A stretch of 64,000 bases of DNA from Daucus carota subsp. sativus (lineage: Eukaryota; Streptophyta; Magnoliopsida; Apiales; Apiaceae): NCBI RefSeq assembly GCF_001625215.2, contig NC_030387.2, forward strand, positions 35,797,606 through 35,861,605, read 5' to 3'. Numbering within the stretch: the first letter of the stretch is position 1; the number at the start of each line of letters is the position of its first letter. The notes under the pieces are model-generated. The model worked only from the letters and a program-made list of their open reading frames with translations. It was not told where the DNA came from and did not search any database. Below are positions 10,257 through 15,275 of this stretch, in pieces. A program made the position numbers and the translations under genes.

Positions 10257-10532
10257 CTGGGGGACCTGAAACTAGGAGAGCTTTTGGATACACCTCGGCC
10301 AGGTCTTGATGAGGCTCTTGCAATCTTAAAGTCATGAACTTGATTGGCCTCAATTAACTTATCTGTTAGTCATTATAGATTTATGATGCCTAGCCCCAAA
10401 CCTGAAAAATTTGCTCATGTCATATTTATTTTATTCGAAATGATCTTGGAGCTGATTTGTAGGTTATGCAATTTGTCGATTCACAAGAATATAGCAAGTT
10501 CACGCGGATTGTTTTTGATACAACTCCAACAG
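10257..10532 (+). pseudogene. GET3-type (ArsA-like) ATPase gene fragment
   Basis: Two exon pieces of a GET3/ASNA1-like ATPase, which delivers tail-anchored proteins to the ER (plants also have plastid forms). Exon A, 10257-10331, reads LGDLKLGELLDTPRPGLDEA and so on. Exon B, 10463-10532, reads VMQFVDSQEYSKFTRIVFDT followed by TPT. These match adjacent stretches of the family just before the GHTLRLL motif. The P-loop exon and the rest of the protein are absent. The intervening intron (10332-10462) is kept, so this is a DNA-level copy, not a retrocopy. The donor after exon A is worn. Function as an ATPase is not possible. Same orientation as the next two fragments. Confidence 0.8.
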
Positions 10533-10890
10533 TCAGTACATATATCATCAAAGCTGATTGTTCCTTGATCGATATTCACTTACCTAATTGTAAACATTTA
10601 ATAGGGACATACTCTGCGTCTTTTAACACTGCCCGACTTTCTGGATGCTTCTTTTGGGAAGATGATGAAGGTGTGTTCCTGCTTTTTGTTGTTAAATGCA
10701 CTAAATTTTATTTTTGTGAGTTATATTATATATGGTATATATTTAAAATATTACGGTTCTTACATGTGCGCACCACAAACTTATAATTTAAAGCACATGT
10801 CAAAACTTATTGTTTTTTATTTATATTAACTATAGAGAAAAAAAAATCAAGTTAATCGATATATATTTATATGATTTGTATATGCTGTAG

Positions 10891-11136
10891 AATAAAGGGG
10901 ATTGGAAGAAAGTTGCAATGATACGTAAAGTGATGCGAGATAGAGGTGTAAAGAAGGAGATAGGTTTTAGCTCAGCAGATGTAGGCGACACTGATGATTC
11001 CTCGAGTTTACATGGATTTTTATCTGATGGCAAGACTCATAAACAATGGGAGAAGATCTATAAACTGGCAGAAAGCTTAGGATCAGGAATGAAACTAATT
11101 TTGAAGGCTGGGGAAGATGTTGCATTGAAAGTATAA
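10891..11136 (+). pseudogene. C-terminal fragment of a PPR protein gene
   Basis: An 82-codon open stretch, preceded by an AG at 10889-10890, encodes NKGDWKKVAMIRKVMRDRGV, then KKEIGFSSADVG and a hydrophilic tail ending at TAA. The pattern GDW..VA.IRK.MRDRGVKKE.GFSW is the C-terminal extension (E-type motif) that follows the last pentatricopeptide repeats in plant organelle RNA-editing or processing proteins. The usual Trp of GFSW is Ser here. No PPR repeats lie upstream; the neighbouring sequence belongs to the GET3 fragment. It may be spliced into a chimeric transcript but cannot work as a PPR protein. Confidence 0.7.
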
Positions 11137-11417
11137 CAGTTGGTCTGTATATCTTATATTTCTAAAAGGATGGTCCATACATTAATGAATCTGCATGATT
11201 ATTTTTTATTCTTATATGAGGCATTGCAAGAATGAAAATATATGCTATTTTATTACAAGAATGAAAAGATTTGAAAAATCTTGGTAGATTTCTCAGGGAT
11301 TGAAATGAAATATGGTGACCGATAAATTACAAAAAGGCTACATTTTTTTTCTTGGAAATTACTGAAGGTAACGTATTTACTTTACTTCCTTGTGTTGTGA
11401 CATTTGTCATTGCAGAA

Positions 11418-12923
11418 ATGGGGTGGATCGGAGAGCAAGTAGATTCAGTCAAGTCTATTCAATTCATAAAGTTTGCCACTCAGACCATCTCTCTCGGTCA
11501 TCTCTCTCTCTCTCCACATATTTATGTTTTTTGTACGGGATCTTTGATCTCTTTGTCAAGCTTGGAAAAGATAAAGTTTTGGACGTTGACAAGTAATCCT
11601 TTTTACGAATAAGAGATCTATTTTATTTTTCAGCTTCTTGATTTTGCAATTAGAGAATGTCCATTTTTTTTATAGGGCATAGTTTACAGTTCAGAGGTTT
11701 TAGCCTTTTGTTAATTTTTCTTGAACAAAAGGTGTACATTAATTTATTTATATTTTAAATAAATTTATCGTAGTAATTTTGTTTTACTATTTGTGGTGGG
11801 GGAGTAATTAATCTTGCATTTGTTTATCTATAGGCATGATTGTTACATTGGCACTAATTATATGGAAAGGATTGATGTGTGTAACTGGTGGCGAGTCACC
11901 TGTTGTGGTGCTTTCAGGAAGCATGGAGCCTGGCTTTAAGAGAGTATGTGCCTTAATCAAATATTTGCTTTTTAATTTTGACGTAACTGATATTTCTAGG
12001 AGCATATGTAATTTTTAGTGAATTTTCTAATCTGGCTGGCAAGAGGTCGTTTTTACCAGGTGCAAATAATTTGTAAATTACTCAGTATTGATAGGGCAAA
12101 AGTGTTTGTTCAATATGGCATTCTGCTAGCAAGTATTTAGCGTGTTATTGTTTGTTGTTTTAATAAATTTTGTGAATGCGGTGAGAATATCATACATTTC
12201 AACTGAAAATAATGCAGTGCGGATACTTTTGCATATGCTGTCGCAAATCTGGCCAGACAATATTGTGGGAAAACGTCAACTAATACAATTTGCCTGTGGG
12301 GGAGGGGGGATGGGGGTTCACATTTATATGATAGCTTTTTAAAATTCACATTTACATTCACATAATAATTTTTTAGTATTAAGTATATAATAGGTGTTTA
12401 ACATTTCTTATTTACATAAATAAGTCACTTATTTACATAAATGAGTCACTTATTTTCAGAAAAAAGTACTCATTTACATACTTTTGTTAGAAGTAACTAA
12501 TTTATTTCTGGAAAAAAAAAAGATAAGCAAAACGGGGTCATTATTACAATTAATTATACAGATACAAAACTTATCTTACTTCTTATTGTATGTTTTTTAT
12601 ACACAAATCTATGCTTTTGTTGCAGGGTGACATTTTATTCTTGCATATGAGCAAGGATCCAATTCGCGCTTGAGGAAAGTTTTGTGTTCAATATTGATGT
12701 AGGTGCTATCATATAGTTCTTATTTACTTTCTCGAGTGCATAGTTGACTCCTAGAAACATTCCAGTGTTGTCTGTTCAACTCTTCTCACAGTTTATGACT
12801 TTAATAGCAAGACTTTTTTTAGGTTATATATTGATTTCTAGGATATTGATAATAATCTCTATTTTTGGTACCATATTTGTCCTTGCAGGGCGTGAAATTT
12901 CTATTGTCCACCGAGTTATTAAG
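11418..12923 (+). pseudogene. Truncated SEC11-like signal peptidase catalytic subunit
   Basis: Four exons of the ER signal peptidase catalytic subunit: 11418-11496 (MGWIGEQVDSVKSIQFIKFA...), 11834-11943 (the TM segment, then [14 protein letters not shown] with the catalytic Ser), 12626-12702 (GDILFLHMSKDPIR) and 12899-12923 (ISIVHRVIK with the catalytic His). Splice sites are mostly intact. Exon 3 carries a small indel that produces a stop right after DPIRA. The expected C-terminal exons with the Asp-containing GDNN motif are missing; the sequence passes into a MITE at 13007. This is a DNA-level, intron-containing copy, downstream of and parallel to the GET3 and PPR fragments. Confidence 0.85.
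12400..12510. repeat. Short AT-rich repeats in the SEC11 fragment intron
   Basis: Three imperfect repeats of CTTATTTACATAAATGAGTC-like units lie in the intron before exon 3. A similar stretch with CACTTATTTTCAGGAAAAAA occurs near 27612, so both derive from a dispersed element that I cannot classify. Confidence 0.5.
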
Positions 12924-13006
12924 GTGAGCAATTTTGGATGTTTTATTTTATTTTAAAATTAATTCAGATGACATATTAGGAAAAATATCAAATTAAAAAG
13001 TAATTA

Positions 13007-13559: not shown

Positions 13560-13986
13560 CGATGCAACTTTAGTTTAGATGCGACTTTCTTTAACTGCTA
13601 GATGGAACTTTAATTTAGATGTGACTTATCGCGAGAGCTCACCTCGCATAACAAAGGATTGTTCAATATATGGGGTATCTGTACCCAGTTGGTGCTGATG
13701 GATATGAACAATGTTCTATCACCGGTTTTTTATGTGCGCAGGTCAATTGTGATTCCACTATTTTCAGTGATGTTGGTGTCGACTGGATTGCTCGAGAAAC
13801 TTTTGTAATCATTTTTATTATCAAGAATATCTATATTCTATCTGTTAAGCAATCTGAAAACAAAGCGGCTATTTGTTTAGCTCGATTTTTGTTTCACAAT
13901 CAGGTTGTAGTTGTCAGTTTGGGGGTTTGTCCCGACTGTGTTCTTATGTTTTATGTTCAATAAAATCTTATTGTTCGTCAAAAAAT
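13560..13986 (+). mobile_element. Probable 3' end of a decayed LINE
   Basis: A short frame reads NKAAICLARF and ends VCPDCVLMFYVQ before a stop, similar to the C-terminus of the RNase H domain of plant L1-type LINEs (N..AH.LAR, then a hydrophobic tail). A short 3' UTR ending TTGTTCGTCAAAAAA follows, the usual oligo-A end of such elements. The 5' part is missing or unrecognisable, and upstream frames are interrupted. No target duplication was found. Confidence 0.45.
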
Positions 13987-13999
13987 ACGTGTCGAGCAC

Positions 14000-15240
14000 T
14001 GCGAAAAAAGTGTAAAGAAATTAGAGGGATAGGAGTATTCTTCACCATATATATGAGCTTTACTTCTACTTATTCAAATTTATTTTTAAATTATATTCTG
14101 TCTCGGGGTTTTGGATCTCGATGTGCAAGACAAGGGTGGCTACTTCAAATTGCTTGTGTTCAACTCGTATATTGAATGTTTATAATGCGCCAGTCCAAAA
14201 AAAAATCTCAAAAGGACGACTCTATCTTCTAATGCTATACTCGAACATATACCGGAAGGGAAAGGAAGGAGTTTGTGTTTAAACTCAATCTAGATAACCA
14301 CAAAATGAGTGGACTCATTTAGAATTATGTTGTTCATGTCATTTTTATATCAAATTCTAATCTGGAAATAAAGTTCCGTCTTTACATGCATATGTATTCT
14401 GATGGTTAACAAGTCCTTTGGACATAGGTATACTATAAAACAAATGGGCATGCTATAAGACAAAGACGACAAGATATTACCAAACTTTTTAATAAGCACA
14501 TACTGAATAAAATATTGCTATTTAAAATTCGAAAGTATAATCTTCTTTGTTATCCATCCACAAAAAGTAAGGTTCTTGCCAATGAGGAGGAGTGTAACAA
14601 TTTCAAGTAAAATGTCAAGGGAATTGCTTCGACAAACGAAGGCAAAGGACACCATCAATGAGTCTGAACTCAACTCAGACGAAATTCTTTTCGTCGACCT
14701 CTTTATCAAACCAAATTGTGGTGATACCTTGCCTGATTGTGAGCTGTTGGACATGGCGAAAGATTAGATCAATGGAGAACCACAAGAGGTGCTACTGGGA
14801 TGGGAAGTGCACATAAGAGAAATGGAAAAATGAGAAATGTGATAAATTAGATGAAGATAGATAAGAAGTAACATTAGAGTTTGAACCTGAGATTTTCACT
14901 TCTTTGGTGAATGATCTCATTGTTAGTTTTTGAAGAAGTGGCTCAACCATACATTTTTTTTTCATAATCAAATAATATTGCCCGCTTGAAAAGTGTCTCT
15001 TCTTGTATATGGTGACTCTGGGTTATTTGCTTATATATATAACGATATATAGTTTTATGATGGTCCAACTTCAGGATAAACATTATTTACAAGTTAAAAT
15101 CTATGTATTAGGTCGTGATTTTTTGATCATCTCATGTTCGTGTCAATCGTTCCGTCCATTCAGCGCATAAGCTAAAAAATATAGCTTCATCGTGTCAATA
15201 CAACAATAACTCTACATGTTAAATAAAAAAAACTTTTAAC
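14000..15240. other. Non-coding stretch before the Helitron-type terminus
   Basis: No convincing gene. A 63-codon open stretch at 14576-14767 and its antisense frame match nothing I recognise. Sequence is AT-rich, and composition does not separate it from the flanks. It probably belongs to the same mobile unit as the captured gene fragments upstream. Confidence 0.4.
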
Positions 15241-15245
15241 ACAGC

Positions 15246-15275
15246 GCCCGTGCCTTGCACGGGCTTCTACGCTAG
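15246..15275 (+). mobile_element. Helitron-type 3' terminus
   Basis: A perfect 8-bp stem GCCCGTGC / GCACGGGC with a CTT loop (15246-15264) is followed 7 bases later by CTAG (15272-15275), then T. A GC-rich hairpin just before CTRR, inserted ahead of a host T, defines the 3' end of plant Helitrons, and the hairpin sequence is close to those I recall from plant Helitron families. Three parallel host gene fragments (10.3-12.9 kb) lie upstream on the same strand, as in gene-capturing non-autonomous Helitrons. No Rep/helicase is present, and the 5' end was not located. Confidence 0.75.

Follow-up and report, generated by a model that had tools for sequence, protein, structure and literature searches.

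The region at positions 10257 to 15275 of the 64-kb window (the whole stretch of DNA that was analyzed) raises the question of whether pieces of unrelated host genes have been carried together by a Helitron. A first-pass annotation had read the region as Helitron gene capture, and this reading was partly supported: a 3′ end and partial gene fragments on the same strand are present, but the search for a 5′ TC end gave no convincing candidate. Three partial genes and a Helitron-type 3′ terminus were directly established. Taken as a whole, the region is probably a non-autonomous plant Helitron with a helA-like 3′ end, which carries DNA-level pieces of three unrelated host genes along with introns. 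The coordinates of the features are given in Table 1.

Table 1. Features located in the region and its surroundings (positions in the window)
Feature	Positions	Strand	Details
Range with three weak 5′ TC candidates	8896-9826	+	8896, 8927, 9826; none above chance
GET3/ArsA-type ATPase fragment	10257-10670	+	Exons 10257-10331, 10463-10531, 10605-10670; two introns
PPR protein C-terminal fragment	10891-11136	+	One open frame; starts inside E motif, ends at stop
SEC11 signal peptidase fragment	11418-12923	+	Exons 11418-11496 (ATG), 11834-11943, 12626-12698, 12889-12923
MITE, presumably Stowaway-like	13007-13241		TA dinucleotides flank the inverted CTCCCTCCGTCCC-type ends; located behind SEC11 exon 4
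Helitron-type 3′ hairpin	15246-15264	+	Perfect 8-bp stem, 3-nt loop
CTAG 3′ terminus	15272-15275	+	T at 15276
bHLH factor piece	19592-20353	-	Pfam
Protein kinase piece	30768-31886	+	Pfam
Kinase piece	45766-46143	-	Pfam
DNA polymerase alpha/B-family pieces	49313-58179	+	Pfam

The terminus consists of a hairpin (GCCCGTGC-CTT-GCACGGGC), 7 nt, CTAG, and T, and it had been placed correctly by the first-pass annotation, downstream of the gene fragments and on their strand. Helitrons are defined by a 3′ CTRR end, mostly CTAG (PMC3288121, PMC6591975), and such an end is present here. The 3′ palindrome of Helitrons is described as 16 to 20 nt long and located approximately 10 to 12 nt before the end (PMC3288121), and the palindrome in this region, 19 nt long and 11 nt away from the 3′ end, falls in both published ranges. 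The T directly after CTAG stands at the 3′ side of the expected A/T insertion position. The published relaxed maize helA 3′ pattern, CCCGT.{6,8}ACG[GA][GA].{6,8}CTAGT, matched positions 15247 to 15276, which do not fit the stricter published helA 3′ pattern. This was the only match on both strands of the window, and the pattern had no match on one strand of 10 Mb of simulated Markov-2 sequence built from the window. When up to three mismatches were allowed, the hairpin pattern was expected 0.03 times per window, and 3 of 100 shuffles had a match. The folding z score of the terminus DNA was -3.3, and only 1 of 200 shuffles folded equally well. Because of the pattern fit, the uniqueness in the window, the zero simulated matches, and the rare hairpin, positions 15246 to 15275 are very likely a Helitron 3′ end. 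Neither a second copy of the terminus nor internal pseudo 3′ ends occurred in the 64-kb window. As a test of specificity, the hairpin and CTAGT pattern was searched in viral and bacterial/archaeal collections, where plant copies are not expected, and showed no exact match. A point against the reading is that Helitron calls based on structure only are prone to sizeable false-positive rates, given as 5.91% and 32.67% for two programs (PMC6591975).

The GET3, PPR, and SEC11 pieces all lie on the plus strand, all are incomplete, and together they span 2.67 kb, in agreement with the earlier description of three same-strand fragments within 2.7 kb, each lacking one or both ends. The joined GET3 exons encode 70 amino acids that matched PF02374 in Pfam (E = 1.2e-14), and the closest solved relative was the ATPase ARSA1 (E = 1.7e-59), which was also the sole match in a single-frame PDB search of 8642 to 15275. 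Because the matched stretch is internal to the protein, both its N- and C-terminal ends are missing. Read without splicing in six frames, the region matched Pfam only weakly (0.23 for ArsA and 0.028 for E_motif), as expected because the exons are short. The PPR piece comprises 81 amino acids up to the stop and matched a synthetic PPR-DYW protein (E = 1.3e-6). Its Pfam E_motif score of 19.3 bits (E = 0.0013) was under the curated cutoff of 27.3, and the PPR-DYW match is the firmer evidence for its identity. The SEC11 piece starts at an ATG and retains four exons, of which the third contains a frameshift and a TGA, and the remainder of the gene is missing. Its joined exons matched SEC11A (E = 2.7e-21) and no Pfam family; a search for SEC11 relatives in viral contigs yielded six pattern matches, none of which was confirmed. 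All three fragments are decaying pseudogenes.

We placed the exon edges of GET3 and SEC11 from the protein matches. With these edges, introns are kept in GET3 and SEC11 but not in the PPR piece, so the earlier statement on introns applies to two of the three fragments. As to the related statement that most acceptors and donors survive, six of the seven GET3 and SEC11 donors carry GT, and GET3 exon 1 is followed by TC. Position 10257, formerly taken as the start of the unit, is the first base of an exon, preceded by a splice-acceptor AG, and not a transposon end. A retrocopy origin of the GET3 and SEC11 pieces was rejected on account of their retained introns; only the PPR piece is intronless. 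If the AG at 10889 to 10890 is used as an acceptor, GET3 exons 2 and 3 and the PPR end stay in one open frame, an arrangement with a chance expectation of one in three. A chimeric spliced mRNA joining GET3 exon 3 to the PPR tail, predicted from the reading frame, could yield a new GET3-PPR fusion peptide, but we regard this outcome as very improbable.

The coding content of the interior was investigated by Pfam searches in six frames of 8640 to 10260 and 10257 to 15200. No Rep or helicase domain was matched, and thus the element would be non-autonomous and moved in trans; a RepHel gene is a trait of autonomous Helitrons only. The same searches found no captured genes beyond the GET3, PPR, and SEC11 pieces, with one sub-cutoff match to Med6 (E = 0.077). 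The MITE that follows the SEC11 piece may be a later arrival or may have come with the donor intron. A degenerate LINE 3′ end, which we had suspected at approximately 13652 to 13990, was dropped because no Pfam match was obtained. Rfam and ARAGORN reported only a tRNA-Arg at 25223.

The 5′ end was sought from 8640, the start, placed by eye, of a neighboring minus-strand gene with an RRM domain. Between this bound and 10257, three candidates within one edit were found, compared with a chance expectation of approximately 1.5 for 1.6 kb. No match to the published helA 5′ patterns occurred anywhere in the window. The helB 5′ pattern, which has a high chance rate (461 per 10 Mb), had matches at 24911 and 36265 alone, both beyond the region. 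Two further 5′ consensus patterns showed 9 and 4 matches (expected, 7.35 and 1.91), and looser forms showed 62 plus-strand matches versus 60.9 in simulated sequence. Thus, no candidate for the TC end stood out above chance with the published, further, or looser patterns in the window. If one of the loose candidates upstream of the fragments holds, the element would be approximately 5.5 to 6.4 kb long.

The extent of the element bears directly on the alternative that survives best, although we consider it unlikely. In this alternative, a short Helitron starting at approximately 13.2 to 15.2 kb owns the 3′ end, and the gene fragments derive from an older, separate event, either a second, now decayed Helitron or the repair of a break with filler DNA. 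Between the last fragment and the terminus lie the MITE and 2.3 kb without a Pfam-recognized gene, which would allow the terminus to be that of a shorter element, and a loose TC candidate at 13830 would leave the gene fragments outside it. However, such TC candidates are expected by chance, and the fragments and the terminus lie close together on a common strand. Far less probable is a segmental duplication that moved ordinary gene remains and left the hairpin and CTAG as a coincidence. The lack of a second terminus copy within the window is consistent with it, but the terminus pattern was absent from the 10 Mb of simulated sequence, and three unrelated partial genes in so short a span are unlike a duplicated block.

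A transposon with terminal inverted repeats (TIRs), whether a Pack-MULE or another Pack-TYPE element, is a very improbable carrier. Capture of host gene fragments is reported for Pack-MULEs (PMC13317346, PMC8903248), and one weak inverted pair of 28 nt with 75% identity (8893-8920 and 12974-13001) encloses the fragments. However, its 21 of 28 matches lie within what 40 simulated runs gave (mean, 20.7; maximum, 22), and the best enclosing inverted matches of 36 in 60 nt and 53 in 100 nt likewise stayed at or below the highest simulated values (38 and 53). Among the best 25 of 31 inverted pairs between 8600 and 18000, this chance-level pair was the only sign of TIRs around the fragments. A long terminal repeat (LTR) carrier was rejected, with enclosing direct repeats at about chance level; over 100 nt, the best direct match reached 54 (54% identity only) against a simulated maximum of 53 (40 runs). 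Both TIR and LTR carriers are therefore disfavored by the chance-level repeats around the fragments. We infer that the gene fragments lie inside the Helitron from their shared strand, their closeness to the terminus, the kept introns, and these chance-level enclosing repeats, with no explanation that accounts for them better.

Other repeats and genes were observed elsewhere in the window. An inverted repeat at 2796 to 3059 has CTCCCTCCGTCCC-type ends like the MITE at 13007, with 111-nt arms that are 71% complementary, and a long MITE-like inverted repeat at 3506 to 3930, which on visual inspection lies in the minus-strand RRM gene, has 165-nt arms that are 87% complementary. One MITE-like inverted repeat family is present in two copies (18941-19168 and 29779-30026). 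Direct repeats include the pair at 5634 to 5823 and 7099 to 7288, which lie 1465 bp apart with two stretches 88% and 98% alike; a repeat at 24158 to 24297 with a 28-bp period, whose four overlapping 56-nt copies are 75 to 100% alike and which also holds inverted repeats; and a perfect 61-bp tandem duplication at 28468 to 28589. The Pfam check of neighboring genes covered 10 frames, of which 6 had a family match and 4 had none. From its gene content, introns, and MITEs, the window is presumed to be nuclear DNA of a plant.

For the preferred reading, a Helitron enclosing all three fragments, we propose that the gene pieces would have been picked up during rolling-circle transposition, stepwise or by read-through, with a RepHel transposase acting in trans. 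The insertion point of the element would lie between an A and a T, upstream of the minus-strand RRM gene. In the reconstructed Helraiser, the 3′ hairpin is described as a terminator whose by-passing transduces flanking DNA (PMC4778049), and capture by maize Helitrons is described as stepwise (PMC3288121); either route could fit what is seen here.

Among the titles and abstract openings covered by a literature search, no Helitron that combines pieces of a signal peptidase and a PPR protein was described. The locus is most likely an ordinary case, a jumping element with gene scraps of a kind already known in quantity. It likely adds another instance of exons from unrelated plant genes being shuffled by Helitrons, and it leaves the picture of how Helitrons work unchanged. 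Host gene fragment capture is shared with Pack-MULE and Pack-TYPE elements, as reported for them (PMC13317346), whereas the enclosing inverted repeats here are not above chance. The gene-capturing Helitrons of Brassica napus likewise carry gene or pseudogene fragments (PMC11986588, PMC5030654), and 35.25% of them are reported to hold two or more (PMC11986588). A B. napus element is described with TC...CTAG ends and an A|T insertion (PMC5030654), whereas the element here is defined at its 3′ end only. In contrast to the maize helA Helitrons as described in PMC3288121, the helA 5′ pattern is not matched here, and multiple termini are present in 28.7% of helAs, whereas this region has no internal hairpin. 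Both have the 3′ hairpin with the CTAGT pattern and fragments of several unrelated genes in common, and more than 90% of the Helitrons identified in maize are stated to carry gene fragments (PMC3288121). Altogether, the locus is a probable further member of the documented gene-capturing Helitrons.
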